From Peptococcaceae bacterium CEB3 (GTDB taxonomy: Bacteria; Bacillota; Desulfitobacteriia; Desulfitobacteriales; Desulfitobacteriaceae), in the NCBI GenBank assembly GCA_001029295.1, contig LDXJ01000052.1, positions 29 to 64,028 on the forward strand: a DNA stretch of 64,000 nt, written 5' to 3'. Below the pieces are notes generated by a model. The model searched no databases, had not been told where the DNA came from, and saw only the letters and a list, made by a program, of their open reading frames with translations. This document shows, piece by piece, positions 3,569-21,673 of this stretch; the first letter of the stretch is position 1, and each line of letters begins with the position of its first letter. Position numbers and translations under genes: made by a program.

Positions 3569-4600
3569 TTACCCCGCCAACGCCAGAATCGCCGGAGCTG
3601 CTAATCCGTCCGTAAGGCCAATCGCCAAAATAGCGGCCCCCACGAATAAAACCGTTAGAGCAACATTTTCCGCCGTAACAACCCCGTACACATGATTCAG
3701 CTGCCCGCTGACGGCGGCCTCCGCCTCCAGGCCGCCATTGTAAAGTGCGTTTTTGGCGTATTTCCACCCCGTGGCCGTCGCGGCCATAAATTTATCCAGC
3801 ACCGTCGCTCCGCCCGAGGCCGGAATGACCTTGCCGAGAATACCCATATTCGTCTGGCCGAACACGGTAATCCCCTGGCCGATGTCCGTCCGCACTTGGG
3901 CTGCCCATCCGGACAGATCGTTGGTCTCGACGTATTGGCTTAGCCCATTCTCAACGTCGGAGACGGCCTGTTCCCAACTGAACGCCTGGGTCGGAATGCC
4001 GTTTTTGCCCAATCGGTAATAAAGGCTCAACGACTTAAGAAAATCCGTAAACTTTTGCGATCCCCACCCGTACGACTGCCAGGATGTCACCTCGCCGGTA
4101 ATAATGCCGGCGGCCCCTATGGCCGATCTCGCGACGCCAATAGCCGGCACGGTATTGACATCCGTCCAGCCGTAGGAAAAAGGATTCAGTTGGGCGTCCC
4201 TATACTGTACCCATCCCCCCTCCGCCATCAGCGCGCTGGCCGAAAGCAGACTGTGCTCGGCGTTTATAATGCCCAGCATCAAGCCCAGACTGATATTTTT
4301 TTGGCGGCAAACCTGGTCGATCGTTTGCAGCATCGGCATCGTAATCAGCGTATCCGGCACCCTTTGGTGAAGCCAATCCAGGACATCTTGGAGTGGATAC
4401 CCCTCATATTGTAGCTCAATTGGCGCAGTCACGGGAACTGGATCAAAACTAGGAACATGTACCGGTGCCGGGGCAAGCCCGTCGCCCGACGGAGGGTTGA
4501 GGATATCGGGAATTTGCGCGTAAAACAGCCAAGGCAATAAAAACAGACATGCAACCAAAAGCGCGATTGCATAGCGGCGTCGGTATTTTGCTTGGATCAT
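3569..4600 (-). CDS. Lysozyme-like cell-wall hydrolase of the secretion system (VirB1-like)
   Basis: 343 residues. A basic N-terminus is followed by one membrane helix (about residues 10-30), a proline-rich linker, and a lysozyme-fold region with MLGIINAEHS (candidate catalytic Glu) and NPFSYGWTD, as in soluble transglycosylases and glucosaminidases. The C-terminus has further hydrophobic segments (about 305-343). Such enzymes open the peptidoglycan for assembly of type IV secretion channels. It is the last gene of the train, has AAGGGGGTG before its ATG, and follows the VirB4-like gene by 4 bp. Which cleavage it makes cannot be told from sequence. Confidence 0.7.
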   Translation of the reverse strand: MIQAKYRRRYAIALLVACLFLLPWLFYAQIPDILNPPSGDGLAPAPVHVPSFDPVPVTAPIELQYEGYPLQDVLDWLHQRVPDTLITMPMLQTIDQVCRQKNISLGLMLGIINAEHSLLSASALMAEGGWVQYRDAQLNPFSYGWTDVNTVPAIGVARSAIGAAGIITGEVTSWQSYGWGSQKFTDFLKSLSLYYRLGKNGIPTQAFSWEQAVSDVENGLSQYVETNDLSGWAAQVRTDIGQGITVFGQTNMGILGKVIPASGGATVLDKFMAATATGWKYAKNALYNGGLEAEAAVSGQLNHVYGVVTAENVALTVLFVGAAILAIGLTDGLAAPAILALAG

Positions 4601-4604
4601 GCTG

Positions 4605-6326
4605 TCACCCCCTTGTTTTGTACAGGGCCGCTTCCTCGGGCGGGATGTCCACCCGAACTTGAACCCAATGCCCGCCCCTGTCCCGAATACAGGCGATATG
4701 GGTCCCGAACTGCTTGCGAATAGCGGTCTCGACCCCGGCCGGAAGGGTAATAACCTTGGTTAATTTGTCAATTTGGTCCGACTCCAAGGCGAAAATGACC
4801 TTCACCGGGGTATTCCCCCAAATCTGGTTCCCCAGATCAGTCGTCCACAGCTGACTCGGGGTATTCGTGGCGAACAGCATAACGCCATTCCATTTCCGAA
4901 TAGTCGTCATTAAGTTCGCGAAATAATTCCCTATGACCGGCTTGGTAATCGTCCGCTGCCCCTCGTCGGAATCGACCACGGTGTTCCGGCCCAATTTGCG
5001 GTTTTGTCGCAGCCATTCCCACGAGGTATCGATCGCCATGGAAAATTTAATCGCGGCCACTTTCGGGCTGGACACGATATCGGGATTGCCTAAATGGAAC
5101 ACGACTAAACGGTTCGGCTGGGTATCCATTTTAATCGGGTCCGAAAAATATCCGGAGAGCCCGCCCTCAAACCCGCGCCAGCATTTCGTCTTAACAGTTT
5201 CGTCGCACTCATCATAAATCTGGCGCATGGTGATGGAGTGGGGTTTATCCCATGTCTCGGGCTTATGCTCGATAATGCCGGCTTGACCGTAAACTTTGGC
5301 CACCGCTTTTTCGACGCTTGTCAGTTCCAAATCGTTCAAATCCCCCATGAGGGTAAACACCCGGCCTATGGCCGACCGCATCCGGGAATAGCGGGTGGAG
5401 TCCTCGTCGGCCAAACCGGTAACCCCCGGGATTAAGCACGGGTCGGGAAACCGCCCGGACTCACCGGACAGATCGATCCAAAGTCCGCCCAGATTTTCAC
5501 AAAGGCTCCGATATTCGCCGTCAATGTCGAATATGATAATCCAGACACCTTTTGTGTACATATCGTACAAAATGGCCTTCATCCAGTAACTTTTGCCGGA
5601 TCCGGTCATACCGAAAATCACGGCATTGCTGGCAAACCCATCTTTGCCCGCCAACAAGTCCAATTGTACCGGGCTTTTCGTACCCAAAATGTGGCCGACA
5701 TAGACCCCCTGCCCGTCCCCGGCGAAACCGACCCCGCGCGGAATAATAGCGGCCGCCCGCTTGGGTACCATGGTCCAGCGATTCCAATGTTCCAGAACTT
5801 TGAGCTTGGCTTTCCCCATCAGTGTGGTAAAGAGCGCCCCAGGAGCCTGTTCGCCGTTGACGGCCACCGCCAACACCCCGTATGAATTCGCGATATCTAA
5901 AAACTTGTTGCAATCAGCCGCCAAGGTTTCCTTGTCCGGGCTGGAAAGCGTTACAAACGTCTCCTCGTCGGTCAACGTCTCATGTTGGTAAAGCATGGCA
6001 TTGCGCAGCGTCAAGATTTTTCGGTAATCCCGCAGCTCGTCGTCGCGGGGGAGCGCGTTGGTGTCCCCTTCTTGGGTGGACATTTCCAAATTGGTTTCCA
6101 ACCGGTTAATTTTGCGGCGGAGGCCGCCGGTCACCTGGAACACGCTGGGCCAAAAAGCGCTTTTAACGCGAAACATTAAATCCGCCCGCATCATCTCAAT
6201 CCACATCACCTCAATACCCTGCGGCGGCCAGGCGGCCAAACGGAATGTTTTATGATAAGCGGCCCCTGACTGCCCTAACCACAGAAAATGATCAAAGTCC
6301 TCTTTAACCGGCACGACGGCTTGCAT
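4605..6326 (-). CDS. virB4: VirB4-like secretion ATPase
   Basis: About 573 residues of a VirB4/TraE-type ATPase. Walker A is GMTGSGKS near residue 238 and a Walker B-like strand ends in VVDSDEGQ near residue 448; further C-terminal motifs include MLFATNTPSQ. VirB4 ATPases sit at the inner face of the membrane and power assembly and substrate movement in type IV secretion. The gene follows the PrgI/VirB3-like gene with an overlap, the usual order in Gram-positive conjugation loci. I prefer ATG 6326 (ribosome binding site GGAGGTGA, eight bases away) to TTG 6332. No VirD4 coupling protein is visible in the window. Confidence 0.85.
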   Translation of the reverse strand: MQAVVPVKEDFDHFLWLGQSGAAYHKTFRLAAWPPQGIEVMWIEMMRADLMFRVKSAFWPSVFQVTGGLRRKINRLETNLEMSTQEGDTNALPRDDELRDYRKILTLRNAMLYQHETLTDEETFVTLSSPDKETLAADCNKFLDIANSYGVLAVAVNGEQAPGALFTTLMGKAKLKVLEHWNRWTMVPKRAAAIIPRGVGFAGDGQGVYVGHILGTKSPVQLDLLAGKDGFASNAVIFGMTGSGKSYWMKAILYDMYTKGVWIIIFDIDGEYRSLCENLGGLWIDLSGESGRFPDPCLIPGVTGLADEDSTRYSRMRSAIGRVFTLMGDLNDLELTSVEKAVAKVYGQAGIIEHKPETWDKPHSITMRQIYDECDETVKTKCWRGFEGGLSGYFSDPIKMDTQPNRLVVFHLGNPDIVSSPKVAAIKFSMAIDTSWEWLRQNRKLGRNTVVDSDEGQRTITKPVIGNYFANLMTTIRKWNGVMLFATNTPSQLWTTDLGNQIWGNTPVKVIFALESDQIDKLTKVITLPAGVETAIRKQFGTHIACIRDRGGHWVQVRVDIPPEEAALYKTRG

Positions 6327-7098
6327 CGGCAATCACCTCCAAATAGCGCTTGCGCAAAGCTCCGGGATTCAGCGCGTCGTGGGATTCCTGGGCCGCATTG
6401 GCCGCGCTCACCCAAATCCATTCCCCTTTCCCGCCCCCCGCGTAATATGCCCGCCGAATCCGGTTCGACAGCGTTTCCGCCTTCGCCACGTCACCGCCAG
6501 CGAAAATGAGCCGGACATATAGCTCTGTAACATAGCGCGAGGTCCCGGTCTCCATCCAATATTTTTCCCGCGTGAGATTTTCCACCCGTTCCGGGACAAA
6601 AGACCTGTGAAATAAATAGGTCTCCAAGACCGCCCCGACCTGCACCGCGGTCCGCACCATAGCGGCCACCCCTTCCGTCAGCATTTCGTATTCGGAATCC
6701 GACAGCAAATCGGTCGGCGGCAAAATCAGATTCGCAAAGACCATGACCTGCCCGTCCTGGACAATGAAATTTTTCAGCGTTTCGAACGGTTTCCAATCGT
6801 AGCCGTGTGCGAGGGGATTCCCCGCCGCAATTTCCCGAGGCCGGGCGGAAAATTCCCTGCGGATCTTTAGTTTTCGCGGCCCGTCCATTTGAAAAAACAA
6901 TCCGGCCCCAATCGGAATTAGAAAAACAAGCGCTCTCACAAGCACGGGGATAAAAGCCAATAAGCCGAACAGCAGCAGTGACAAGGCGGCCACCCCGGCA
7001 ATGATCAGGAAATCCTGCGTTTTAATGTTGCCGATAACGACGGCGTCCGTCCCCGCATCCAGTTCGATCTGTTCGGCCGGCATAAAATCCTGTTTCAC
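6304..7098 (-). CDS. PrgI/VirB3-like inner-membrane secretion protein
   Basis: 264 residues. Two adjacent membrane helices (about residues 29-48 and 51-66) near the N-terminus are followed by a cytoplasmic domain of about 190 residues. Two N-terminal helices just upstream of a VirB4 gene is the classic VirB3/PrgI arrangement, but family members are usually shorter, so the long soluble domain is unusual. The GTG at 7098 has GAGGGGG at good spacing and overlaps the stop of the VirB6-like gene by four bases. It probably docks VirB4 to the membrane channel. Confidence 0.7.
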   Translation of the reverse strand: MKQDFMPAEQIELDAGTDAVVIGNIKTQDFLIIAGVAALSLLLFGLLAFIPVLVRALVFLIPIGAGLFFQMDGPRKLKIRREFSARPREIAAGNPLAHGYDWKPFETLKNFIVQDGQVMVFANLILPPTDLLSDSEYEMLTEGVAAMVRTAVQVGAVLETYLFHRSFVPERVENLTREKYWMETGTSRYVTELYVRLIFAGGDVAKAETLSNRIRRAYYAGGGKGEWIWVSAANAAQESHDALNPGALRKRYLEVIADASRRAG

Positions 7099-9194
7099 AA
7101 AACAATCCCCCTCTGCGCCACCTCTTTCGGAACCGCGTTCCCGTTTTCGTCGATGTATTTCCCGAACACAAAGCGATATGTTTTAATGCCGGACAACACT
7201 CCAGTCACCACTTTTTGTACGTTTTCGTCGCCGGCCGCAAAGACAACGCGCTTCCCCCGGAGCCCGAAGCCGCCGTCCGGTATGTCACTCGTCGGGGCCG
7301 AGAAATCGGACAGCGCCTTGTTCATATTCCCTTTGTTTTTTAAGAGCTTGTAAACCCACTCGGCGGTCTCTTCGTTTTTAAAGTCAATCACTTTTTCCGG
7401 CTGGACGTAAGCCCGCTTCACCAAGTTTTGCCGGTCTCCCAAGACCGCCCCGGCCCTCTGATCCAGTTCGGGGTTGTCCGCCGCGTACGTAATTTTATTC
7501 CCGTCGAGTTGGAACGGCCTGTTTTCGTCCCCTTGGTTAAGCCGATCCGACACCCTTTGGGCAACCACCCGATTCTCAAAGGACATTTCCTTTTTAGGCT
7601 GTTCGCCAACGCCGTAATCCCCCAATATGCGGCGCATTAATTGATTCTCGTTTTGATCCCTCCCGGAGTATGTGATGGTATTATCGCGCCGTTTAAACGA
7701 GTTGTTGGCGGGCACCCTGCTCTGCAAAGCCTCCCACACCTGGTTCGCCGTCGATTCGCTTTTAAAGGCCACGGACTGGCCCCATTTCGGCTGATCATAC
7801 TCGTAAACCGTCTGATCGGACTCGCTCATGGTGTACGGGCTCCCCGGAGCCGACGGCTCGTCCGGATTCGCGTAATCCGCCAGTTTGCCAGCCGCACGCT
7901 CAATTTTATTCCCGCCATATTGAGCCAACGCCCGCACATTGGCCGGCAACTGCTCCCCATGCTGTCGGATAAATTGATTGATATGAGCCCCCGCCACCTG
8001 AACCTGCTGCATCACGTTATAAAACAGGCGCCACATAGGCTTTACACCAACCGTATTAATGACGAGTATCATTACGCCCAACACAATGACGTTAACAAAG
8101 CTCAAAAACCAACCGCCGAACATCTGGGTCATCATTCCAGGCTTAGCCCCAATAACCCAATGATTGATGAGCGCCACGATTAAATCCGCGGTCATCAAAA
8201 GGGCAAGCCCCGCCAACACTCTGAGCGCCGTTTTTAAAAACAGCCAGACCCGGTCCAGGGAAAAGGGGTTGGCAACCATAAAAATACAGACGAACGGGAA
8301 TAGATTAAAGAACAAAATTTGAACGGCCCCCTCAAAGGCCAGCAAGATCGCTTCGAACAAAATGACCATTTCAACGATGATGGACGGATTGAGTACACGT
8401 TCCAAAATCGCGCTGATCGTCTCCAATGGGTCGCCTTGCGCAATCCCCTGAATGAAATTTACAATTGTCGGCCAGAAATTAACGGCGATGTTCCCTAACA
8501 TCCCCCAGGGATTGAATCCCCCGTGGCTGGTTCCAATTCCGAACATCGTAGCTAAAATCCACATGGGATTGCCAAAGGTCGCCGGGTCTATACTGGTGGT
8601 ATTGGCTATCCCTAGGCTTTTCTGAGTGCCCAGGATAAAATGTGTCATGATCGGGCCGTACAGTCCCTTGTCGAAAATTGTCCCTAATTCGGGTGAAAAA
8701 ACAAAGGCCATGAGCGTTACGGGCGCAATGATCCATTCCCACGACCGAACGCGCAGAGTGCCCTTCTCGCGCAACATGAGGAACACTTCCCACATAACAC
8801 CCAACGCCCAGACAAAAATGCCGATCATGAACACCCACTGCGGCAGCGGAATGCCGGCAAACAATTTCGTACCTGGCAAAGGGTTCAGAGGACTGGAATA
8901 CACCTTGGGAGTCCACGGGGCGGGCTTTGACCCCAGTAAAAGGCTACTAATGTTTTGTACAATATCCCCGGTCCCAGTGGTCTTGGTAAAAAGCGACACG
9001 ATGTTCTGCCCCAGCGCGGACAAATTGGAACCGTACAAAGCGACAACCAAGAGACCGAACAAGAGGTAAAACAGCCAATTATCGACCCTCTGCCCCATGT
9101 CCGCACTGTTGATTAGTTTTGAGAAAATCGTGGCCACCTGGCTTAGCTTAAGGTTTGCCAAATTCGCCACAGCCTGCCCCGCAACCGGACCCAC
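7095..9194 (-). CDS. VirB6/TrbL-like polytopic channel protein with triplicated C-terminal repeats
   Basis: 699 residues. An amphipathic N-terminus, then at least six hydrophobic segments (about residues 40-410), as in VirB6/TrbL channel subunits of type IV secretion. From about residue 455 the protein is soluble and contains three related stretches beginning FKSESTANQVWEAL, FENRVVAQRVSDRL and FKNEETAEWVYKLL, each followed by a segment with ITYSG, ITYAAD or VVFAAG and a short helix. These look like tandem copies of one roughly 80-residue module. Start GTG 9194 has AGGTGA upstream and abuts the GGDEF gene. The repeats may bind a partner or substrate in the cytoplasm. Confidence 0.75.
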   Translation of the reverse strand: MGPVAGQAVANLANLKLSQVATIFSKLINSADMGQRVDNWLFYLLFGLLVVALYGSNLSALGQNIVSLFTKTTGTGDIVQNISSLLLGSKPAPWTPKVYSSPLNPLPGTKLFAGIPLPQWVFMIGIFVWALGVMWEVFLMLREKGTLRVRSWEWIIAPVTLMAFVFSPELGTIFDKGLYGPIMTHFILGTQKSLGIANTTSIDPATFGNPMWILATMFGIGTSHGGFNPWGMLGNIAVNFWPTIVNFIQGIAQGDPLETISAILERVLNPSIIVEMVILFEAILLAFEGAVQILFFNLFPFVCIFMVANPFSLDRVWLFLKTALRVLAGLALLMTADLIVALINHWVIGAKPGMMTQMFGGWFLSFVNVIVLGVMILVINTVGVKPMWRLFYNVMQQVQVAGAHINQFIRQHGEQLPANVRALAQYGGNKIERAAGKLADYANPDEPSAPGSPYTMSESDQTVYEYDQPKWGQSVAFKSESTANQVWEALQSRVPANNSFKRRDNTITYSGRDQNENQLMRRILGDYGVGEQPKKEMSFENRVVAQRVSDRLNQGDENRPFQLDGNKITYAADNPELDQRAGAVLGDRQNLVKRAYVQPEKVIDFKNEETAEWVYKLLKNKGNMNKALSDFSAPTSDIPDGGFGLRGKRVVFAAGDENVQKVVTGVLSGIKTYRFVFGKYIDENGNAVPKEVAQRGIVL

Positions 9195-10603
9195 TAGCGC
9201 TCACCTGCTTTCCTCGGCAAAAGCCGCAATATATCGCCGGGTTTATCTAACGGTGATATTGCGATCGCCGGATAGTTGAGGGTCAATCCGTTGTCCTCGG
9301 TGACAAATACAATCCGGTCCACATACGGCGGCGGAGCGGTTTTCCCCGCCCCCACGACAATTGCCCTATCGACGGTATTCAGGCTGTACAAGGCGTTTTC
9401 CCAGAGCGCCTTAGCATTTTTGGGGCGGGGCGGACGCTTACCAAGCCCCCATACCCACAAATTCCCCTCCTGTTTGGTGCCGGACGGAGCCAATGCCGGT
9501 GTCCCGAGTGCCCAGCAATCCGACCAATTGCCCGGCTGCTGAGGATTCGCCAAGTCCCCGTCGAGATAGAGCACCGGGCCAAAACGGGCTAAATATTGAG
9601 CAAAGGCATAATCTACTTCGTGCCCCCGTTCACCCCAAATCCATATGATTTTCCCTTGGAAAGCTCCGCCATCACCGCTATCGCTGGGAACAGGCGGTGG
9701 TGTGCCGGGTTGTTCTGGTTTTTCAATTTTAGGGATAGGGATCTTGGGAATCGGAATGCTAATCTTGTGCCTTTGCCTTTTGGCCGAAAATTTAGGAATG
9801 GGTGGTTTCGGAGCTTCGGGTTTTGCCGTCGCGCGCCCGTCTCTCTCTAATCGAATCCGAACCGGTTGGTCGTCCTCAATTTGCTCCCATTCCGATTCCG
9901 GCACTTTTGTGCGCCACTCCAGATTTTCAATGGGCATACCCCATTCGCCGAATTCGTCTTGGTCGTCGCTTTCAGCCGGTTCGTGCTTGATGCAATGACA
10001 CAATTGGTCCGCACTCTCCACAAAGATTCCCTCCAGGATATCGGGATCTCGGGTAAACACAAAATCGACCCCGCCCTGCTCATACCCCAGGAAAAACCGG
10101 ATTTTGCCCCGCACCAAAGGGACGTACCAATCCGCGGGCCAGTCTGTCTGGATGAGCCCTACCCTTTTTTGGGGCTCGAACATTAAAAGGCCGCCATGAT
10201 GGACGTGCTTCGCCTCATACATCGCGGCATCGGCCATCGCCAGGGCAAGTTCCGCGGTGTCGTTAGGGGCGGTATAGACCACCCCTAACGAATAACCGAT
10301 TTTTATGGACTGATTAAAGATTTCCACGGTCTCCCGCTTCGCTTGTTCCGGGGTTAGGACGATTCGATCCGGCGAAACCCCGATAAACTCGTCCCCTCCG
10401 TAACGGTCCCAGATAAACTCGGGGAAACATCCCCTTAGCTCGTCTAAAACATGTTCCAAATATTCGTTTCCGGCGAGATGACCATATTTGTCATTAATCC
10501 CTTTGAGACCGTCCGCGTCCGCCAGGCAAACCGTCGCCGATCCCGTCCCCAAAACCTCACGTATTTTGTTTTCGCATCCGATTGGGTTCGGCGCCGGCAG
10601 CAT
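9194..10603 (-). CDS. GGDEF domain fused to a CpaE-like C-terminal domain
   Basis: 469 residues. The N-terminal ~145 residues form a diguanylate-cyclase domain: CLADADGLKGINDKYGH followed by an intact RYGGDEF near residue 66. The inhibitory RxxD site five residues before GGDEF is missing, so product inhibition would differ. A central segment (about 150-300) is acidic, then proline/lysine-rich (IPIPKIPIPKI). The C-terminal ~150 residues (GKIIWIWGERG…VLYLDGDLA…AIVVGAG) follow a MinD/CpaE-like strand order but lack a P-loop. It is embedded between VirB2- and VirB6-like genes, suggesting that c-di-GMP synthesis is part of the machine. ATG 10603 has AAAGGAG upstream. Enzymatic activity is inferred only from motifs. 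Confidence 0.75.
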   Translation of the reverse strand: MLPAPNPIGCENKIREVLGTGSATVCLADADGLKGINDKYGHLAGNEYLEHVLDELRGCFPEFIWDRYGGDEFIGVSPDRIVLTPEQAKRETVEIFNQSIKIGYSLGVVYTAPNDTAELALAMADAAMYEAKHVHHGGLLMFEPQKRVGLIQTDWPADWYVPLVRGKIRFFLGYEQGGVDFVFTRDPDILEGIFVESADQLCHCIKHEPAESDDQDEFGEWGMPIENLEWRTKVPESEWEQIEDDQPVRIRLERDGRATAKPEAPKPPIPKFSAKRQRHKISIPIPKIPIPKIEKPEQPGTPPPVPSDSGDGGAFQGKIIWIWGERGHEVDYAFAQYLARFGPVLYLDGDLANPQQPGNWSDCWALGTPALAPSGTKQEGNLWVWGLGKRPPRPKNAKALWENALYSLNTVDRAIVVGAGKTAPPPYVDRIVFVTEDNGLTLNYPAIAISPLDKPGDILRLLPRKAGER

Positions 10604-10621
10604 ACCCAAGACTCCTTTTTA

Positions 10622-11026: not shown

Positions 11027-11027
11027 G

Positions 11028-12972: not shown

Positions 12973-13009
12973 CCTCACTAATAGGTGGTTTTTGTCCAAC
13001 AAAAACTTA
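12973..13009 (-). repeat. Gene-boundary repeat copy B, upstream of the Flp-like gene
   Basis: 18-bp core at 12984-13001. With the adjacent bases it matches copy C (13984-14021) over about 37 bp apart from a one-base indel. The two copies are in the same orientation and flank only the antirepressor gene. Confidence 0.9.
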
Positions 13010-13015
13010 GAGGGA

Positions 13016-13983: not shown

Positions 13984-14021
13984 CCTCACTATATAGGTGG
14001 TTTTTGTCCAACAAAAACTTA
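13984..14021 (-). repeat. Gene-boundary repeat copy C, between tadC and the antirepressor
   Basis: 18-bp core at 13996-14013, extended similarity to copy B. The stop codon of tadC overlaps its outer edge (TAAGTTTTTG). Confidence 0.9.
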
Positions 14022-14843
14022 ATGACCCAGCGCCCCTGCCGGCAAAGTCCCCATCAGGCTGACAAAAATATGATAAAAATATGGCACCATACCGACGATC
14101 ATCGCCACCATCATGGAAATCCCGGCGTAAACTGTCATTGGCGTAGTAGCCCGTTTCAGCTTGTACCGCTTTTGCATCCCCTTTAAGTGATTCATGTGTT
14201 CGCTCAAATCCCCGAACGGAACCTGTGGGACTCCCTCTTTGGCATACGAGACAAGGCGCACGAGAACGGCCGTTAAATCCCGGTTGTCGATCCGATCGGC
14301 AAAAGACATGAGTGCTGTCTCTAGCGATACCCCCGATTGCGTCATGGCCACAATACGTTCCCACTCGGCGGCCATTCCGCCTTTAAGCAGCGCCGCAATA
14401 TTTTCAACGGCTTTCACCGGAATATCCCCGGTATCCAAGCGGATTTTGAGATATGTCACCAGGTCGGGAACATCCGCTATAATATCTCTGGCCCAGCTTT
14501 GGTAAATAGCCGAATACCGCAAATACGATAAAAGATATCCCAGCCCGATCCCGACGAATCCGAAGAAAATATTCGTAAACGCGGCCAGCATCAACACGGG
14601 CATCACGGCCATGAAAACAATTGTTTCCAAAAAATATTTACTGGGGTCAACCCCAATGGTCTCCAGCCGGCCCTTTAATTTTTTATTTCCGATGAGTTCC
14701 CCCAAATGAGTGACTCTCTGTTTCAAAGACACCTTTTGGGTCCCAACGAGTACTTCTCGGCGCCGCATTTCGGCCCGGTTAAAGGACAATTTGTGGTATA
14801 TTCCAAAGGCTATCAATAGAGCTGATAAAACAGAAAGAAACAT
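14019..14843 (-). CDS. tadC: TadC-like pilus inner-membrane platform protein
   Basis: 274 residues with a T2SSF-type domain: an N-terminal helix, paired helices around residues 88-125, a cytoplasmic helical bundle (DVPDLVTYLKIRLDTGD…GGMAAEWERI…SLETAL) and a C-terminal helix (around 240-262). TadB and TadC form the membrane platform on which the TadA motor acts. It follows tadB by 18 bp with GAGGGGGAGG upstream of the ATG. Length is normal for the family. Confidence 0.85.
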   Translation of the reverse strand: MFLSVLSALLIAFGIYHKLSFNRAEMRRREVLVGTQKVSLKQRVTHLGELIGNKKLKGRLETIGVDPSKYFLETIVFMAVMPVLMLAAFTNIFFGFVGIGLGYLLSYLRYSAIYQSWARDIIADVPDLVTYLKIRLDTGDIPVKAVENIAALLKGGMAAEWERIVAMTQSGVSLETALMSFADRIDNRDLTAVLVRLVSYAKEGVPQVPFGDLSEHMNHLKGMQKRYKLKRATTPMTVYAGISMMVAMIVGMVPYFYHIFVSLMGTLPAGALGH

Positions 14844-14861
14844 TTTAACCTCCCCCTCTGG

Positions 14862-15776
14862 TCAAATCGTCACCCTCAACCTGGAGAATTTTCGGATCCC
14901 ATGGAAAACGATCACCGACCCTACAGCGCTCAATATCGGCACCCAAGCCAAGTGAGTCGGCACAGGCTTGTATACCGCCGGATCGAGGAAGCGGTATATG
15001 AACATCACGGCCGGATTCACGGCAAACATCACGATCGTGAACATCATATACATAAAAATCTCGCCCCTGGTCTCCGCCTGCATGGATTCTTCCTCACGGA
15101 ATTTCCAGTCAAGTTCCCGGAACCCTTGTGTTTTAGCGCCGCTGACCCGCACGGTTTTTACCAAATCCACAAAAAAGCTAAACGACGGGTGGTCCACATC
15201 TTTTGCCAGCACATCCAGGGCCGCGGCCTCATTTTCCCCGGCCGCCAACCGGCGCAAAAACGCCGCGGTATACCGTTCCATCGGCGGCTCTTTCACCGCT
15301 TTCGCGGCTGTTTCCAAGGCGTCCCTAATCGTCCGCCCGGCAAAAAAGACGTCGTTAAATGAACTTACGAAAACGGAAATTTGCTTTTGGAGCACGTTGA
15401 GGGCTTTTGAACCTTTTTGCTCAAACCACATGCCCGGCAGCTGATAAGCCAGGGTCGCCATAATCAAAGCGGAGAAAAAATTTAAAGAAACAAAATACCA
15501 AACAAAGAACCCGATAAGCGCCGCCACTGTCGAGATATTTTTGAAACGTATCAGCGAGACGTCCAGAATCCTCAGCGACTGGAGGGTGGCTACTTTTGAT
15601 TTCCGCAGTTTTTTCTCTTTTTTGGCCCTCTGTTTATGCGCCTTGGCCGCCTTTTCTTTTGGTTTCCGCCTGGCCATGAGCTCGTCATGATGTGTGGGTT
15701 TGCGGATAAAATGCACAAGGACAATCCCGTCCGCAAAGCTCAAAAGAAATAACAAAGCCGTAATCAAAACGTTCAC
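14862..15776 (-). CDS. tadB: TadB-like pilus inner-membrane platform protein
   Basis: 304 residues: N-terminal helix, a very basic linker (about 32-66), helices around 78-118, a T2SSF bundle (FVSSFNDVFFAGRTIRDALETAAKAV) and C-terminal helices. The gene order TadA-TadB-TadC is the canonical one. GTG 15776 overlaps the tadA stop (GGTGA); because the ribosome binding site touches it, TTG 15767 is an alternative start. Confidence 0.85.
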   Translation of the reverse strand: MNVLITALLFLLSFADGIVLVHFIRKPTHHDELMARRKPKEKAAKAHKQRAKKEKKLRKSKVATLQSLRILDVSLIRFKNISTVAALIGFFVWYFVSLNFFSALIMATLAYQLPGMWFEQKGSKALNVLQKQISVFVSSFNDVFFAGRTIRDALETAAKAVKEPPMERYTAAFLRRLAAGENEAAALDVLAKDVDHPSFSFFVDLVKTVRVSGAKTQGFRELDWKFREEESMQAETRGEIFMYMMFTIVMFAVNPAVMFIYRFLDPAVYKPVPTHLAWVPILSAVGSVIVFHGIRKFSRLRVTI

Positions 15777-17080
15777 CCCCTTAATTGAATCTCCAATTGC
15801 CTTTCTGGAGAAAGGTCCGCCAGTTTTTGATGGGTTTTTGTCACAGGATCCAAGGCAAATAACGTCGTAAAAGGCTCCCCGTTTTTGCCCCGTTCGGAAT
15901 CAATGGGGTTAACTTCGACGATTTGAGTGATTTTCCGGCTGCCGTCTCGGAATCGGTCGATAAAGACCATGATGTGAATTTGTTCGCGAATGAACTCCTC
16001 TAACGACTCCCGGTCCATATCCATCTGTCCCGACAACTTGAGGTAAAACATCAGCAAGAACACAGCCCTCTTCGGGTTCCCGGCGTGCATCGTCGTAATA
16101 GGCCCTGGGTGGCCGGACGCGGTGGTCCGTAAAAACGGCGCGGCCTCTTCGCCTCGAATTTCCGAAACGCAGACCCGGTCCGGACGTTTCCGCATCGCCG
16201 CCTTAAACAGCTTAGACATAGTAATGCTTTGTTCTTCGTTCTCGCGTTCCACGGTTTGCAAGCTCAAAAACCGCTTTTTCCGGGCATTCGTTTCCCGTGT
16301 GTCCTCGATGAAAATTACATATTCATCGTCTGAAATCCCTTCCTCAATCAATTCCCGCACCAGCGCGGTTTTACCGGATCCGGTCCGGCCAAAAACCATG
16401 ACCGTAAGCCGGTTCCGGACGGCATTGAGCAGAAATTCCATTTCCTCTTCAGAGGCACTGCCCAGATTGACGAAATCCTTAGCGCTGAAATAGCGAGTCT
16501 GCGAAGCGGCTTTCCGGACATTAACCGTGATATATTCCGTGACCGGCGGCCGAGTAGCCTGTATCCGTTCACCGTCCCGCGTCTCCATATCCAAAAGAGG
16601 AGTATTTTCGTCAAAATGTCTTTTCCCGTCGGACATAACCATAATATGGGTATCAAACCAGAGGCTTAAATCCTCGGCATCCGCAAATGACTCGCGCACA
16701 TCATAGAGCGTCCCGCCCTTCTCGATCATAATGGTGTGAGGACCATTAATGATGATTTCGGTTATCTCTCCGTCTTTACGGTATTTTTCTAAAAACCCAA
16801 ACCCGAACAGATCATCCAGGACCATCTGGAGCAATTTGCCCTTCTCCGACTCCAAGAGCGACTGTTCTTGAACCAGAACCCTAATTTTACTTTCGATCTC
16901 TTTCCGGTGTTCCCACTTTGCTCGGATTAAATCATCCCGAACCAATTGTTCCCGAATTGCTGCCATCGCGGTTTGGATCGGGTCTTGTGAAGGGTTGGCA
17001 CGAGCCTTGATGATGGCCTCTTCTTGCAAATTTATGCCTGTTGTGACGACTTTCTCGGTTATAAGATTAATCTTAGGCAT
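15773..17080 (-). CDS. tadA: TadA/CpaF-type pilus assembly ATPase
   Basis: About 435 residues of a secretion ATPase of the GspE/VirB11 class. Walker A GRTGSGKT is near residue 233; downstream come EDTRE, the Asp-box-like RKRPDRVCVSEIRG and the His-box ASGHPGPITTMHAG. It powers extension (and perhaps retraction) of the Tad pilus. ATG 17080 is chosen for its GGGGGA ribosome binding site; the longer frame from 17122 begins inside the upstream gene. A second, truncated gene of this family lies at 52702. Confidence 0.9.
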   Translation of the reverse strand: MPKINLITEKVVTTGINLQEEAIIKARANPSQDPIQTAMAAIREQLVRDDLIRAKWEHRKEIESKIRVLVQEQSLLESEKGKLLQMVLDDLFGFGFLEKYRKDGEITEIIINGPHTIMIEKGGTLYDVRESFADAEDLSLWFDTHIMVMSDGKRHFDENTPLLDMETRDGERIQATRPPVTEYITVNVRKAASQTRYFSAKDFVNLGSASEEEMEFLLNAVRNRLTVMVFGRTGSGKTALVRELIEEGISDDEYVIFIEDTRETNARKKRFLSLQTVERENEEQSITMSKLFKAAMRKRPDRVCVSEIRGEEAAPFLRTTASGHPGPITTMHAGNPKRAVFLLMFYLKLSGQMDMDRESLEEFIREQIHIMVFIDRFRDGSRKITQIVEVNPIDSERGKNGEPFTTLFALDPVTKTHQKLADLSPERQLEIQLRG

Positions 17081-17094
17081 ACCCGCTTTTCCCC

Positions 17095-18324
17095 CTATTT
17101 GATCCCCAACAGGCTTTTCCAAAAGCCATTTTTCTTAACCCTCTTGGCTTGATTAAACGCCTTGCTGCCCTTGGCCCCCCAATCCAAGGGACTCAATATC
17201 TCCCAGACGTCCCGCCAGGCCGCGGGAATGTTTAATTTCCGGTCATTTATCATCCGATAATACCCCTCGGGATCTGCCGGAACCGTAGCAATTAAGGGAA
17301 TTCCGGTCGTTTCGGCAATCTCGACGTCTTTAACCCCGGCTGTGGGCACGTATTTGTTGATAATGAGTTTGAGTTTACCCGCGACGTCTTTTAACCCTTG
17401 GAGATTTTGCGTCCGTGTGATAAAACGCATTAATTTTTCCTCGGCTTTGATGGTCGGCTCCCCAATCAAAATAATGGTGTCAACCTCTTGCAGCGTTTTG
17501 TACACCGACAGCTCGGAAAGCTGGGGCGGCAAGTCATAAATCACGGTGTCATACGCTTGGCTGTTAACCCAGCTATAGAGATTGGCGATATTGTCTTCAT
17601 CACATTTCATGCCCAGCGTATCGGCACCAATCGGTAAAACGGCGATATCATCCACCTTTTGTAAGTATCCCTGGACCCTTTCCCGAAAAAGGTCATATTG
17701 TTCCCACTCCTCGTCCAGAATGCTTCCCAAGCCTTCCGTAACCGGCGGCGCCCCCAGAGCCTGCAAAACACCCGCGTTGTCGTTGTCTGATTCGACAATG
17801 CAGACGGAATGCCCGGACTCTTGAGCCAGTTTGCCGATCATGACTGAGGCGGTCGTTTTGCCGATCCCGCCCAACGGGGAATAACAGGCTATTTTTAACC
17901 GGGTTTTCGGTTTGACAACTGGCACAAGACTAACGTTCGAGTCCTCCGATTCGACAAAATTCCAGGCAAACTCGTCGTCCGCGTGATCACCGTCCAAAGT
18001 CCGCCGAATCCACCCGGACACATTTTCAGCCGGCGCCAAGTATAATAAATTTGCCTCGGCGATCTTTTCTAGGTCCGAAGCACCTAAAGTGTCACAGACT
18101 TGATTATTGGCATAAATGATTCCGACTTGAGCTTGACCCGGGGTATACCCGGATAAATCCAAAGCTTGTTTGCGGAAAATAATATGGACTTCCGCACTGG
18201 GGACCGCGCTAAACCCGGATAACATGGGGACAATAATCGGATTTCCGCCGTTTTCCCGTACCAGTTCGGCGACACGTTCGACCCCCGAACTGGTCTGCGG
18301 CCCACAAATAACCACCGTTTTCAT
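17095..18324 (-). CDS. TadZ/CpaE-like ParA-type ATPase with intact P-loop
   Basis: 409 residues. An N-terminal receiver-like domain (about 1-120) is followed by a MinD/ParA domain with the deviant Walker A SPLGGIGKTTA near residue 150. TadZ/CpaE proteins place the Tad machine in the cell. The ATG at 18324 overlaps the stop of the preceding, related gene (TTTGATG) with GGAGGTGG upstream. Having two such proteins in a row, one with and one without the signature lysine, suggests a heteromeric positioning unit. Confidence 0.8.
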   Translation of the reverse strand: MKTVVICGPQTSSGVERVAELVRENGGNPIIVPMLSGFSAVPSAEVHIIFRKQALDLSGYTPGQAQVGIIYANNQVCDTLGASDLEKIAEANLLYLAPAENVSGWIRRTLDGDHADDEFAWNFVESEDSNVSLVPVVKPKTRLKIACYSPLGGIGKTTASVMIGKLAQESGHSVCIVESDNDNAGVLQALGAPPVTEGLGSILDEEWEQYDLFRERVQGYLQKVDDIAVLPIGADTLGMKCDEDNIANLYSWVNSQAYDTVIYDLPPQLSELSVYKTLQEVDTIILIGEPTIKAEEKLMRFITRTQNLQGLKDVAGKLKLIINKYVPTAGVKDVEIAETTGIPLIATVPADPEGYYRMINDRKLNIPAAWRDVWEILSPLDWGAKGSKAFNQAKRVKKNGFWKSLLGIK

Positions 18325-19415
18325 CAAATCCCACCTCCGATGACGACCTGCGCGGCCTTAATTATTTTTGTGAGAGATTTTTTGATCTGCCCAGTCGTTT
18401 TCCCGTGAGCCACCTGTTCCCAATCGGCCGAGTCTTTGATCGGGAATTCCGCTTTGATACCGGTCAGCAATTCAAGTTCGCCCGGATCGCCCCCGCGCAT
18501 AACCCAACCGGGAATTATCCGGGTCCAATGAGCCTCCCTGGACATAACCGCAAACCGGACGGCCGAATCCACGGCGACCGGCGAGGCTCCGGCGACCGGG
18601 AATACTTTATTGGCCATCCAAAGCGCCGCGTTCGCCAGGGGAAAGGTGAGATCGCTTCCGGCATCCACCACCACGTAGCCGGAACGCCGACTGGCCCAAC
18701 GATAAAGCTCTTTAGCCGCCGGCAGCGTCCAGTGGGTTTTCCCATGTAAATTCCCCGCCGCCGAAATCGGCAAGATCTCCAACCCTTTGCGAATTTCCGT
18801 GAGGTACGGGCCCATCGTGGCTTCGCCGATTTCGTCCGGGGAAATATCCGAAAAGGTATCCAGTCCCTGCTTAGCCGGCGATTGACCAAACATCCTAGCG
18901 AGACTGCCCCCGCTGCGGGCGGCCTCAATGACCATGACAGGGATCCCTTGGGCATAGAGCTCCCTCGCAACCGCCGCTGACACAGACGAGACCCCCAAGC
19001 CGCCCTTCGTCCCCAAAAACACGATGATCTGATTTGCGGCCACCATTTGCGGGACCGGGCTGTGGGCATGTTCAAAAAAACTCCGTTTGCGCTCTATCGC
19101 CTCGACGAATACGTCTTTAGCCGGTGGGGCGTTCCAGGAAAAATCCTCCTCGACCGTGACGGACAGCTTGTTGGCTGTGTCCTCATTAACCGATATGGCA
19201 TAAGGGCCCCCGGGTTCCAACGTCCGAAACATCACTTCAAAATGCCCCTCTTCGTTGGTAAAGCCCGTTTCCGCTTTAGAGGCAATTTGGGCCTTGACTT
19301 CGGCATTAATCCGGGGCTGACCCGCCGAGTCCAGAAAATAGCCGCTGACTTTGAACGGACATGACACCGTAACCGATCCCGTATGTTCATGGTTGACTTG
19401 AATCCCAACCCACAT
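18324..19415 (-). CDS. CpaE-like MinD-family protein with N-terminal Ig-like domain and degenerate P-loop
   Basis: 363 residues. The first ~95 residues look like a carboxypeptidase-regulatory/Ig-like beta domain (VSGYFLDSAGQP…TGFTNEEGHFEV). The rest is MinD-like: FLGTKGGLGVSSVSAAVA near residue 135, where the usual GK[ST] lysine is Val. CpaE/TadZ proteins often have such atypical P-loops. Start ATG 19415 has GAGGGGG upstream inside boundary repeat copy D. A domain normally found on extracytoplasmic proteins fused to a cytoplasmic ATPase is unusual. Confidence 0.7.
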   Translation of the reverse strand: MWVGIQVNHEHTGSVTVSCPFKVSGYFLDSAGQPRINAEVKAQIASKAETGFTNEEGHFEVMFRTLEPGGPYAISVNEDTANKLSVTVEEDFSWNAPPAKDVFVEAIERKRSFFEHAHSPVPQMVAANQIIVFLGTKGGLGVSSVSAAVARELYAQGIPVMVIEAARSGGSLARMFGQSPAKQGLDTFSDISPDEIGEATMGPYLTEIRKGLEILPISAAGNLHGKTHWTLPAAKELYRWASRRSGYVVVDAGSDLTFPLANAALWMANKVFPVAGASPVAVDSAVRFAVMSREAHWTRIIPGWVMRGGDPGELELLTGIKAEFPIKDSADWEQVAHGKTTGQIKKSLTKIIKAAQVVIGGGI

Positions 19416-19419
19416 CGTT

Positions 19420-19456
19420 AAAAACCCCCTCACTTATAGGTGGTTTTTGTCCAACA
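19420..19456 (-). repeat. Gene-boundary repeat copy D, between the HD-GYP and CpaE-like genes
   Basis: Core at 19439-19456. The HD-GYP frame is read through the core (C-W-T-K-T-T-Y-K) and stops at TGA in the loop, directly before the GAGGGGG ribosome binding site of the next gene. Confidence 0.9.
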
Positions 19457-20038
19457 AGCGACAACGTCTGGATCAAATTTTATCCCCGCTAATTTTTTGA
19501 TATAGCCGAGTGCATCGTCCCCCGACCACGGGGGGGCATAAACCCTATGGGATACCAATGCATCATAGACATCGGCAATGGTCACGATACGGGCGAAGGG
19601 GTGAATTGCCTTATCGCTAAGCCCCCTAGGGTAGCCCGAACCATCCCAATTTTCGTGGTGCTGCAAAATAATCGCCTTTGATGCCGACGGCAAGGGCGGA
19701 CTGATCTCATAGCCTTTTTCCGGATGTTGCCGGACAACGAGAATTTCTTGGCTGTCCAAAGACCCCGGTTTTGTTAAAATTTCTTGAGGAACAAAAAGTT
19801 TACCAATGTCGTGCAGCAAGGCTCCGTAGCCCAGTTGCCTCAGTTGTTCATCCGAATATTTGGCCTCAATACCCAGCAATAAGGCCAGCTGGTACACGTT
19901 CACACTGTGCAAATAGGTGTACTCGTCCCATGCTTTTAACGCATCCAGAATAGGAAACTGGGACAGATTGATACGCTCCAAAAAGGCCACCCCTTCGGTT
20001 AAAAAGTTAAAATACGGAAAAAACCGGTTCCAAACCAA
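19430..20038 (-). CDS. HD-GYP c-di-GMP phosphodiesterase
   Basis: 202 residues, essentially a stand-alone HD-GYP domain: HSVNVYQLALLLG, LLHDIGK, HHENWDGSGYP and IVTIADVYDAL are all present. HD-GYP enzymes hydrolyse c-di-GMP, so this is the natural counterpart of the GGDEF protein at 9194. Its last residues are encoded by boundary repeat copy D, so the ribosome finishing this gene opens the next one. Start is TTG 20038. Intact motifs suggest activity; a role in resetting pilus or channel function is inference. Confidence 0.85.
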   Translation of the reverse strand: MVWNRFFPYFNFLTEGVAFLERINLSQFPILDALKAWDEYTYLHSVNVYQLALLLGIEAKYSDEQLRQLGYGALLHDIGKLFVPQEILTKPGSLDSQEILVVRQHPEKGYEISPPLPSASKAIILQHHENWDGSGYPRGLSDKAIHPFARIVTIADVYDALVSHRVYAPPWSGDDALGYIKKLAGIKFDPDVVACWTKTTYK

Positions 20039-20094: not shown

Positions 20095-20114
20095 CCCATC
20101 CGACGTTTTGATCT

Positions 20115-20142
20115 CCCCCTAATTAGTGGTTTTTGTCCAACA
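20115..20142 (-). repeat. Gene-boundary repeat copy E, after the glycosyltransferase gene
   Basis: Core at 20125-20142, 17 of 18 bases conserved (last base differs). The upstream gene stops at TAG inside it, immediately before GGGGGAG. Confidence 0.85.
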
Positions 20143-21441
20143 CGAAACTTTGCCATCGTCATAAACCTGGTGCCAACCGGGTAACAGCCAGATTTGATCG
20201 GCAACGATGCTGTGATTCGGGAACACCATATATTTCGCGTTTGGAATATCCACGCGTAAAAGTCTCCTCAAGGGATATTGCCCCACCAGGGTTTCAAAGT
20301 AATGGTCGTACCAAGACTGTCCGAGCCAGATGTCCCGTCCGTCACAAATGGGTTTCAACCCAGCCATTTCCATGGTTGAGCCGTATTCGTACTGATTCAG
20401 CACCCGAACCGCATGAACGGACTTTAAATATTGAACCGCCTGATATTCCACCGGACGGGCAAACGGCTGAGTGATCCAGATTGGAGTCGTCATCAAAAAA
20501 ACACTGAAAACCCCGACAGTGACAAGCGCCATAACCTTTTTTAATGCCGGGGTGAGAGGCGGACATTCAATCACAAGCATGTCGATGATCGCCGAATAAA
20601 TTCCCAGCCGCCGCGAGAACAAAAAGGCCGCGGTGCCAAAAAACACCCAGAGCTTGGACCGTAAATCCCCCCGCTTTATCACTTGGTACCCGGCAATCAA
20701 AGCAAAGCCAATGACAATCCAGGGGAGTGCCCCATGAAAATTCGGCGACCGGTATTCCGGGATCAAAAGGCTCAACCGGTTGCCCTGCATTTTCGTAAAG
20801 GCCACCAGGGACCCGAGACTCGTGGGACTCACAAAAAAGCCGCCGAGCGAAATAAACCACGGCTTCCAGAGCGTCCGCCAATCTCGCTGAATCAAAGTCT
20901 CGATCCCCAGCAGTCCGAGCCATAAAATGGCGGAGGCATGGGTGTTATTCCAGGGAATAACCAAAAGTGACAACAGGGAAAGGTTCCGGCCCCTCAATAT
21001 CCCAACAAGGGCTATCGCGAAAAAGAGATAAGAGAATATTTGCGGTCTGACCACGGCGGCCGACCCCGCCGCAAAGAAAAAGCAGAGCCAAAGCCAACCG
21101 AACTCAGGTATTTTGAGCCGGGAGTGCCACAGGATGAGCCCAAAAAGGCAGCCATATACCACGACCACCAGCCAGCGATCCCCGGCCCATCCGAACAGGG
21201 AATAGATCCACCCCGCCAACAGGTCAAAGCCCCATTCCGCGTTGGCCCACGGAGTGTCCGGCGCTTTCCAGGTAAACCCGTCCCGGTGTAAAATCGCGTG
21301 ATGCCGCAGCATCCAAAGGCCGTTGTGGACGTGCCAGCCGGGATCGTAAGCCCAGCCGCCAATACCGGCGAAACCCCAGGCGATGACCAGTCCGGCCCCA
21401 AATAAAATAAGCTTGCCCCACTGTTTTTGTCGGATTGACAT
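20119..21441 (-). CDS. Polytopic GT-C-like glycosyltransferase
   Basis: 440 residues with about ten hydrophobic segments. The N-terminal pattern, a helix followed by acidic/His residues (YDPGWHVHNGLWMLRHHAIL) and then NAEWGFDLL, is that of GT-C fold membrane glycosyltransferases using lipid-linked sugars. A soluble C-terminal region follows from about residue 340. Placement in a pilus locus suggests modification of pilin or adhesin. The start at 21441 is set by GAGGGGTGG in repeat copy F; the C-terminus (…CWTKTTN) is encoded by copy E, so this gene is bounded by repeats on both sides. Confidence 0.7.
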   Translation of the reverse strand: MSIRQKQWGKLILFGAGLVIAWGFAGIGGWAYDPGWHVHNGLWMLRHHAILHRDGFTWKAPDTPWANAEWGFDLLAGWIYSLFGWAGDRWLVVVVYGCLFGLILWHSRLKIPEFGWLWLCFFFAAGSAAVVRPQIFSYLFFAIALVGILRGRNLSLLSLLVIPWNNTHASAILWLGLLGIETLIQRDWRTLWKPWFISLGGFFVSPTSLGSLVAFTKMQGNRLSLLIPEYRSPNFHGALPWIVIGFALIAGYQVIKRGDLRSKLWVFFGTAAFLFSRRLGIYSAIIDMLVIECPPLTPALKKVMALVTVGVFSVFLMTTPIWITQPFARPVEYQAVQYLKSVHAVRVLNQYEYGSTMEMAGLKPICDGRDIWLGQSWYDHYFETLVGQYPLRRLLRVDIPNAKYMVFPNHSIVADQIWLLPGWHQVYDDGKVSCWTKTTN

Positions 21442-21444
21442 TGG

Positions 21445-21482
21445 AAAACCACCCCTCACAGAAAGGTGGTTTTTGTCCAACA
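21445..21482 (-). repeat. Gene-boundary repeat copy F, upstream of the glycosyltransferase gene
   Basis: Core at 21465-21482. AAAACCACC (21445-21453) and GGTGGTTTT (21465-21473) can form a nine-pair stem that includes the downstream ribosome binding site. Confidence 0.9.
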
Positions 21483-21487
21483 CGAGA

Positions 21488-21673
21488 TTAATGCCCGTCT
21501 ATCGGCAGCGTCGCCCACGCCAACAAGTAAAGAGTCCCCGTTAGCCCCCAAGCAAACAAGGTTACGACCGCAGTCACCCTAATCGACCACGGCGGCAGCC
21601 CCAGCCATTCGGCAATGCCGCCGCACACGCCGCCGATAAGTTTGTGCCGGCTGGACCGGAACAACGGAATCAT
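21488..21673 (-). CDS. PspC-domain membrane protein
   Basis: 61 residues matching a minimal PspC domain: short basic start, KLIGGVCGGIAEWLGL, then a hydrophobic helix (LFAWGLTGTLYLLAWATLPI). PspC proteins sit in the membrane and often sense envelope stress, for example from secretion channels. It is the first gene of the Tad/T4SS train and is preceded by a duplicated promoter/leader block. ATG 21673 lies a few bases after a G-run that may disturb reading of the exact ribosome binding site. Confidence 0.8.
   Translation of the reverse strand: MIPLFRSSRHKLIGGVCGGIAEWLGLPPWSIRVTAVVTLFAWGLTGTLYLLAWATLPIDGH

Follow-up and report, generated by a model that had tools for sequence, protein, structure and literature searches.

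The genome of Peptococcaceae bacterium CEB3 contains a train of genes in which the components of a Tad pilus run into those of a type IV secretion system (T4SS). The train lies within a window of 64,000 nucleotides (bases 29-64028 of contig C52, which measures 110,911 bp in a genome of 5.3 Mb and 64 contigs) and comprises 20 open reading frames (ORFs), all on the minus strand, from position 21673 down to 3569. It begins with a PspC-domain protein, a membrane protein, an HD-GYP protein, a MinD-like protein, TadZ, TadA, TadB, TadC, a P22_AR_N protein, an Flp-like protein and CpaB, continues with two proteins without a family, two small membrane proteins and a GGDEF protein, and ends with a seven-segment membrane protein, a protein in the VirB3 position, VirB4 and a protein in the position of a cell-wall hydrolase. 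The starts of the ORFs were set mechanically and some are uncertain. The layout bears out the gene order and strand given for this Tad-to-T4SS train in a preliminary description, which had been made from the letters of the sequence.

The Tad names assigned in that description to TadZ, TadA, TadB, TadC and CpaB were confirmed by Pfam, NCBIfam and PDB profiles. A MinD/ParA-like protein with an N-terminal extension and an uncertain start (18324..19433; Pfam ParA, 1e-5; 30% in genome G008, a relative from the window's class) is followed by a TadZ/CpaE-type ATPase (17095..18327; Pfam CbiA, 2e-9; NCBIfam CpaE_hom, 3e-8). The TadA/VirB11-family ATPase (15773..17122; Pfam T2SSE, 6e-25; NCBIfam VirB11, 5e-50, and TadA-conjugal, 7e-46) retains both the Walker A motif and the His box, and CpaF structures in PDB were matched by its family profile at 2e-81. 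The platform proteins are TadB (14862..15776; Pfam T2SSF, 7e-8) and TadC (14019..14843; T2SSF at 4e-4, which is below the Pfam cut-off; 26% in G008), and CpaB/RcpC lies further downstream (12019..12819; Pfam SAF, 1e-5; NCBIfam pilus_cpaB, 4e-9).

The pilin itself is less orthodox. The ORF previously described as an Flp-like pilin (12738..12917) does code for a small, Flp-like membrane protein of 59 residues, which shares 33% over 30 residues (2e-4) with a Paenibacillus protein in the Flp position, and short ORFs of similar appearance were seen by eye after tadC in G008 and inside the operon of plasmid pLS20. A prepilin leader was not found in this ORF, and a stop codon directly precedes its start codon. 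Since the Flp leader is missing, the system is regarded as working like a Tad pilus and is not counted as a proven member of the Tad class. Other pilin-like proteins (window 37382-41026; L010:4908-5360) may do the work of Flp. The first of these is a large surface protein with Ig domains, encoded outside the train on the plus strand (37382..41026; Pfam Big_1, 1e-25), whose homologue in G008 (36%, 2e-79) lies between tadC and cpaB. Its N-terminus is hydrophobic and, by eye, TadE/G-like, and it is a candidate pilus adhesin; its gene is preceded by the repeat leader described below.

The T4SS part is anchored by the VirB4-family ATPase (4605..6332), for which the preliminary assignment was upheld by Pfam P-loop_TraG (3e-12) and by a family-profile match to the VirB4 structure 4ag5 (1e-30). 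The names VirB2, VirB3, VirB6 and lysozyme, which had been given to its companions, received no support from profiles; they derive from topology and position. Two small membrane proteins occupy VirB2-like positions: the first (11028..11294) has two hydrophobic segments and a position kept in Paenibacillus and G008, with no family above cut-off in Pfam, the only library against which it was scanned, and the second (10622..11065) has three membrane segments, a conserved position and no PDB match. The polytopic protein in the VirB6-like position (7095..9194; seven hydrophobic segments) is also conserved in position and gave no Pfam or PDB match of note. The VirB3-like position is held by a protein with two membrane segments and a soluble domain (6304..7098; 33% in G008; a profile match of 1e-15 in G377), which was likewise scanned with Pfam only; membrane segments were assigned by hydropathy throughout. 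The last protein of the train (3569..4600; two membrane segments; 35% in G008) is membrane-anchored and stands in the position of the cell-wall hydrolase, which in other loci is held by M23 peptidases; Pfam and PDB gave no match for it, and its likeness to lysozyme is without support. Structure models of the second VirB2-like protein (pLDDT 58) and the VirB6-like protein (pLDDT 42) were of low confidence and too poor for a fold search. No Pfam match of the VirB8/TcpC kind appeared among the 20 proteins of the train.

The remaining members of the train are less readily placed. The PspC-domain protein at its head (21488..21673; Pfam PspC, 2.9e-18) is of uncertain membership in the system, and the polytopic membrane protein behind it (20119..21483) has no Pfam family above cut-off and a homologue inside the first of two G008 loci (tblastn, 32%, 5e-53). 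The P22_AR_N antirepressor-like protein between TadC and Flp (13016..13921; Pfam P22_AR_N, 1e-26) is flanked by two repeats and is probably not part of the machine. Between CpaB and the VirB2-like proteins are a membrane-anchored protein to which no fold was assigned (11598..12131), conserved at 30-33% in G008 and G018, and a small soluble protein without a family in the Pfam scan (11311..11601).

The genes are packed closely, as had been described, although not seamlessly: among the 19 junctions that lead from PspC to the final gene of the T4SS, 16 overlap or leave no more than 18 nt, and the other three measure 80, 97 and 98 nt. The ORFs of the Flp-like protein, CpaB and the T4SS adjoin one another by overlap or almost touch, and the gap from the end of the train to the next gene is 207 nt. 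In a simple scan for terminators, 40 sites were listed where 30.5 (sd 4.4) would be expected, and the interval from 12.0 to 12.9 kb had none on the minus strand. The train may form one transcript; if transcripts end within it, the gaps of 97-98 nt with their repeats at 12.98 and 13.99 kb are the likely places.

All three of the wider gaps contain or adjoin a copy of a hairpin repeat, of which seven distinct copies, sharing an invariant core of 17 nt, stand before gene starts. On the minus strand one copy lies at 1731-1752, and others precede the Flp-like gene (12981-13002), the antirepressor-like gene (13993-14014), the MinD-like gene (19436-19457) and, with three mismatches, the HD-GYP gene (20122-20143); a copy with two mismatches (21462-21483) lies at the 5' end of the membrane-protein gene, and the copy on the plus strand (37351-37372) precedes the Ig-domain gene. 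No copy occurs elsewhere in the 5.3-Mb genome, none was found in a reversed control, and Rfam gave no match. The probable ribosome-binding site is covered, in several of the copies, by a second hairpin. The repeat may serve to control its genes jointly, at the level of translation or transcription, or may be a small mobile cassette.

The absence of VirD4 and a relaxase from the window, which had already been remarked upon, holds for the replicon as a whole. Pfam found no VirD4 among the 103 ORFs of C52 (one match, at 4e-8, lies on contig C46) and no relaxase family, in a search that did not seek relaxases of the tyrosine-recombinase type or oriT; the relaxase family PF03432 is absent from the entire host genome. 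The same replicon encodes an FtsK/SpoIIIE protein outside the window (C52:85308-86645 = L010:1409-2746; Pfam, 6e-44), close to a YdjM protein (Pfam) and a pilin-like ORF recognized by eye. Its family profile matches the FtsK DNA translocase 2iut at 6e-110, the coupling protein 6o1z at 7e-37 and the type VII ATPase YukB at 2e-27; NCBIfam TraB, the Streptomyces protein, is matched at 1e-15, and one Paenibacillus relative (L018) carries an FtsK gamma domain (6e-18). This ATPase is likely to be the stand-in for VirD4. That a pump for double-stranded DNA accompanies VirB4, a pilus and a channel, with no relaxase among them, argues for DNA as the cargo.

Two enzymes of cyclic di-GMP (c-di-GMP) metabolism are also encoded in the train, namely an HD-GYP protein of the phosphodiesterase type (19430..20038; Pfam HD_5, 6e-33; 36%, 4e-31 to a relative on a Paenibacillus plasmid) and a GGDEF protein of the synthase type (9194..10609; Pfam GGDEF, 4e-13). 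These domains, as well as the P22_AR domain and the hairpin repeat, did not figure in the preliminary account. Such domains recur as GGDEF and EAL in G008 and as HD-GYP or EAL in Paenibacillus, with HD-GYP annotated in the stretch of one of three Paenibacillus plasmids, and the recurrence of three kinds of c-di-GMP domain in these loci suggests control by this messenger.

A survey of relatives shows how closely the two sets of genes are associated. Plasmids of Paenibacillus encode VirB4 relatives with 27-29% identity, in the neighbourhood of TadA, CpaB, FtsK and an M23 peptidase. A scan of 84,980 species, represented by one genome each, returned 11 loci: ten from Paenibacillus, and a short match in Trichodesmium that lacks the module. 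Within the window's class, 16 of 82 genomes gave a VirB4 match at 1e-15, and the strong type was present in four (G000, G008 twice, G011 and G018); in a sample of 398 genomes from the phylum 20 matched at 1e-30, and only G000, G008 and G377 at 1e-90 or better. TadA lies within 25 kb of VirB4 and on the same strand in all 14 VirB4/FtsK loci that could be assessed: the window, G008 twice, G377 and ten Paenibacillus species (L018, L019, L020, L021/L031, L024, L025 with L059, L026, L027, L028 and L029, where L021 and L031, being assemblies of the same species, count as a single case). The count excludes L030, an additional example in which TadA is cut by the contig end, and the VirB4 loci of G011 (a contig of 3.9 kb), G018, L032 and L033, whose contigs also end too soon.

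The 14 loci span the window's own family, a second family and Paenibacillus, lie on plasmids as well as chromosomes, and exhibit at least four gene orders. The first G008 locus follows the order of the window, with MinD, TadZ, TadABC, the Ig-domain protein, CpaB, a prepilin peptidase and a membrane protein, then two small membrane proteins, YdjM, GGDEF and EAL, and finally the VirB6-, VirB3- and VirB4-type proteins, the hydrolase-position protein and FtsK. The orders in the second G008 locus, G377 and Paenibacillus differ from it. The distance between VirB4 and TadA is 9.4 kb in the window, ~13 kb in G008 locus 2 and ~11 kb in G377; relatives that keep the two sets apart were sought and none was found among these loci, the nearest exceptions being G008 locus 1 (~23 kb) and one Paenibacillus (L025, ~20 kb). 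Scans of the G008 genome and of three Paenibacillus plasmids for the PF03432 relaxase and PF02534 VirD4 families found neither.

Certain Paenibacillus loci gave no Tad match by tblastn and were considered as cases of separate sets; this was rejected when a diverged CpaB-TadZ-TadA set was found 1-4 kb past FtsK, or ~15 kb past it in L025. The local TadA model was built with proteins of L024, L028 and L031, where its matches are therefore by construction. Independent Pfam T2SSE matches fall in the matching places of five records, at 2.9e-8, 1.1e-8, 1.5e-8, 3.4e-10 and 7.4e-8 (L021 and L031 among them, being one species); L028 and L030 gave no T2SSE match at 1e-6, and TadA there is assigned by likeness to its neighbours.

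Among five contrasting VirB4 lineages inspected in the phylum sample, TadA lies in the span of G363 and not in those of G314, G294, G391 and G392, some of which are cut by contig ends. Near a diverged VirB4 type within the class (G050, G076, G014), TadA is found on the same strand at a distance of 8-13 kb and VirD4 lies ~12-13 kb to the other side of VirB4, with a weak relaxase match between them in G050; G056 has VirB4 and VirD4 on a contig that stops where TadA would be. Two kinds of this arrangement thus coexist, one with VirD4 and one, that of the window, with FtsK.

The Tad set may itself have been exchanged. Between the plasmid-type and the chromosomal-type loci of Paenibacillus the mean identity is 61% for VirB4, 42% for FtsK and 15.5% for TadA, whereas TadA is 51% and 55% identical within the two groups, and both retain a Tad set despite this divergence. 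The simplest reading of these identities would be that one Tad lineage was swapped for another with the neighbourhood kept; unusually fast change in one group is a possible alternative. Distances correlate (Mantel) at r 0.89 for VirB4 and FtsK and at 0.55 for VirB4 and TadA, with 0 of 5000 permutations as high, values to which shared host ancestry contributes.

The preliminary description had proposed a single machine or, alternatively, joint regulation of a pilus and a conjugation system, a suggestion that in part gains strong comparative support from the presence of TadA with VirB4/FtsK in 14 of 14 loci. The reading as one machine appears well supported by the comparison of sequences. More specifically, the interpretation favoured here, and held with moderate confidence, is that of a relaxase-less, FtsK-driven machine for DNA transfer with a Tad pilus for contact. 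The train would encode most of this single cell-to-cell transfer machine. Its pilus, composed of TadZ-TadA-TadB-TadC, CpaB and the leaderless Flp-like subunit together with the plasmid's Ig-domain adhesin, would contact and hold the partner cell, and a VirB-type membrane channel of VirB4, the VirB2-, VirB3- and VirB6-position proteins and the wall-hydrolase-position protein would serve as the conduit. TadA, as a VirB11-family member, may serve the channel too, like VirB11 in Gram-negative T4SSs. The FtsK/SpoIIIE-type motor would pump the DNA in place of VirD4 and relaxase, probably in double-stranded form as does Streptomyces TraB, and the GGDEF and HD-GYP enzymes would set the timing of assembly.

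Several observations weigh against this interpretation. The gaps of 97 and 98 nt separate the core Tad genes from the Flp/CpaB/T4SS part, and are accompanied by hairpin repeats and a foreign-looking antirepressor gene. The names VirB2, VirB3 and VirB6 are unproven, with neither a profile nor a structure match. No prepilin peptidase was found in the train, and elsewhere in the genome a single one was recognized, on contig C64; the G008 locus has its own. The FtsK of the window's replicon is ~80 kb from VirB4 along the contig and showed no gamma-domain match in the Pfam scan, and FtsK motors serve chromosome segregation too. Finally, the chromosomal home of several relatives speaks against simple plasmid conjugation.

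The same gaps and repeats between the core Tad genes and the remainder speak for two separate devices in one regulon, whereby a Tad pilus that serves adhesion to surfaces or biofilm formation and a T4SS-like transporter that works independently of it are switched on together, for example by c-di-GMP. Consistent with this are the probable exchange of the Paenibacillus Tad module, as modules can be exchanged, and the VirB4-TadA spacing of 20-23 kb in two loci. Yet the association outlasts four gene orders and the apparent Tad exchange, which a mere shared promoter explains less well, and there is overlap or almost no space between the genes of the Flp-like protein, CpaB and the T4SS, such that this explanation is considered rather unlikely. 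The lack of a relaxase and the chromosomal position of several loci may also be accommodated by contact-dependent protein secretion or killing, in which the VirB channel exports the Ig-domain protein or effectors and FtsK acts like the type VII ATPases EccC/EssC, whose NCBIfam models it matches at 3e-21 to 9e-28. Its far closer likeness to DNA translocases (6e-110 versus 2e-27 for YukB) makes this improbable; moreover, no pair of effector and immunity proteins was recognized, though no special search was made. Least probable is an ordinary conjugative T4SS of the pL15/pLS20 type that lost VirD4 and relaxase and is mobilized in trans, or that uses an unrecognized TcpM-like relaxase of the tyrosine-recombinase type, since, for all that same-class relatives combine Tad, VirB4 and VirD4 (G050 with its weak relaxase match between), that tyrosine recombinases are encoded on the replicon and that TcpM is listed as a tyrosine recombinase of class MOBM (PMC12857230), the VirD4-bearing loci have a deeply diverged VirB4 (~1e-20 versus 1e-87 or lower with the same profile) and the FtsK-type set forms a complete, conserved unit of its own.

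The relaxase-less transfer machine favoured here has partial counterparts in the literature, and such an arrangement is not without precedent in Gram-positive replicons, similar ones being present in plasmids of Sulfobacillus thermotolerans and Cutibacterium acnes and in pLS20. The first two are in print as Tad and T4SS genes on Gram-positive plasmids (PMC6803676; PMC5696575). The backbone of the S. thermotolerans plasmids pL15 and pY0017 and of the integrated plasmid of Kr1 resembles the window in its MinD, CpaF/TadA, TadB/TadC, VirB4 and lytic transglycosylase, and has been reported as a conjugation system that includes homologues of both T4SS and T2SS (PMC6803676). It has a MOBP relaxase and TraG/VirD4, with no FtsK motor mentioned in the section concerned, the reverse of the situation on the window's replicon, and resembles instead the VirD4-kind layout of G050, G076 and G014. 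The C. acnes plasmids p15.1.R1 and pIMPLE, compared by description only, combine an FtsK-domain protein, VirB4 and a tad locus on one plasmid; unlike the window, they are actinobacterial and a TcpC-like protein is reported, and their authors leave the link between pilus and conjugation open (PMC5696575).

In the plasmid pLS20 of Bacillus subtilis, genes for TadA, TadB/C-like, Flp-like and VirB4 proteins lie on one strand within 16 kb, and its record has TadA, TadB/C-like, VirD4, VirB4 and relaxase genes in one stretch. This plasmid is known from the literature to be conjugative. It differs from the window in possessing VirD4 and a MobP2 relaxase, and the match of its VirB4 to the family profile reaches no better than 7e-24. 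In the conjugation region (L076:9839-12586) TadA is followed by platform-like genes and an Flp-like ORF of 47 residues. Relatives of pLS20 TadA at 1e-30 occur in 151 plasmid records, of which 94 are typed as conjugative, a count made without regard to whether VirB4 is near. A virB11 gene is named in the pLS20 conjugation operon (PMC11730352).

More distant parallels concern single aspects of the machine. IncI plasmids (TP114, PMC9045228) and PAPI-1 (PMC12857230) join a type IV pilus to a VirB4-type transfer system, in IncI with a switching adhesin tip; they differ in being Gram-negative, in having a type IVb rather than a Tad pilus and, in PAPI-1, in having VirD4. Streptomyces TraB (PMC12857230) provides an FtsK-type motor for double-stranded DNA and relaxase-independent transfer, with no VirB4 channel or Tad pilus described alongside it in that text. 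The archaeal Ups and Ced systems (PMC9905601; PMC11868833) comprise a relaxase-less, chromosomal VirB2/VirB6/VirB4-like set and a type IV contact filament, but they import DNA and no FtsK is described there, and several of the present loci are plasmid-borne; matches to Ced/Ups families in NCBIfam were weak and far below cut-off (CedD 3e-9, UpsF 1e-4). Tad pili are a filament class of suggested archaeal origin (PMC6668835). It is tentatively conceivable that the loci represent a bacterial counterpart of Ups/Ced, relaxase-independent and c-di-GMP-tuned, on chromosomes and plasmids, whereby a Tad pilus would gather cells and a VirB-like pore and FtsK would move genomic or plasmid double-stranded DNA, with a switching adhesin in one relative.

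The relative in question carries a shufflon-like array in G008 locus 1 (L048:6604-13315), in which the Ig-domain adhesin gene adjoins two inverted cassettes and a tyrosine recombinase. The cassettes share the last common stretch of the adhesin (488 nt at 94%; 491 nt at 72%), followed by differing C-termini, and are similar to the PilV shufflon of IncI plasmids (PMC9045228). Long inverted cassettes were not found in the window (37300-47500) or in G008 locus 2.

Gram-positive conjugation systems are said to form no pili (PMC8014075, PMC8092201), and a 2025 review describes them as universally without VirB11 homologues (PMC12857230). In contrast to these statements, a VirB11-family TadA and a pilus set accompany VirB4 in every assessable locus of one family, and in pLS20. 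Since this TadA set is present in the genetically tractable pLS20, Gram-positive mating by pili can be tested through deletions. No description of the FtsK kind as a conserved, relaxase-less and partly chromosomal system was found in the open-access literature of one library. If this version moves double-stranded DNA without a relaxase, it would constitute an additional route, intermediate between Streptomyces transfer and classical conjugation, that relaxase-based typing would overlook; PLSDB classes each of the four Paenibacillus records examined as non-mobilizable.

The replicon that carries the train is probably a plasmid. Contig C52 starts with 26 bases that resemble a sequencing adapter and that form with the following NN an assembly remnant (bases 1-28). 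The next 1765 bases are an exact copy of the last 1765, which makes a circle of ~109.1 kb likelier. An alternative, that the contig ends in a repeated insertion sequence, was rejected, the adapter-like start and exact overlap fitting a circle better. Pfam scans of C52 also revealed GyrB, an FtsZ/tubulin-type GTPase, RecU and a primase, and an ORF of 999 residues in the window (23038-26037) was named DnaE-like by eye. A phage origin was considered and rejected, as the matches in Pfam, the library scanned on this point, included no conspicuous family of capsid, tail or portal proteins. Two Spo0A genes were found in the host genome and a secretin was not, which fits a spore-forming, single-membrane (Gram-positive) host.

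Some minor features of the replicon and genome may be added. The protein encoded at window 433-1752 is of the TnpB type (OrfB_IS605; Pfam scan), and its gene has almost the same leader as the Ig-domain gene at 37382 (98% identity over 46 nt). A second VirB4-like protein is encoded in the same genome on contig C54 (L016:10906-13038; profile match 2e-12), with no TadA match within the 20 kb scanned. Short proteins resembling pieces of TadA occur in the window (52673-52930, plus strand) and at L048:3870-4361 and L047:9550-9792; two have the His-box stretch and no Walker A, and one has a degenerate Walker A-like stretch only. Near the FtsK cluster of C52 lie genes for three paralogous, probably secreted proteins of ~300 residues (L010:8476-9390, 14026-14970 and 16114-17022).

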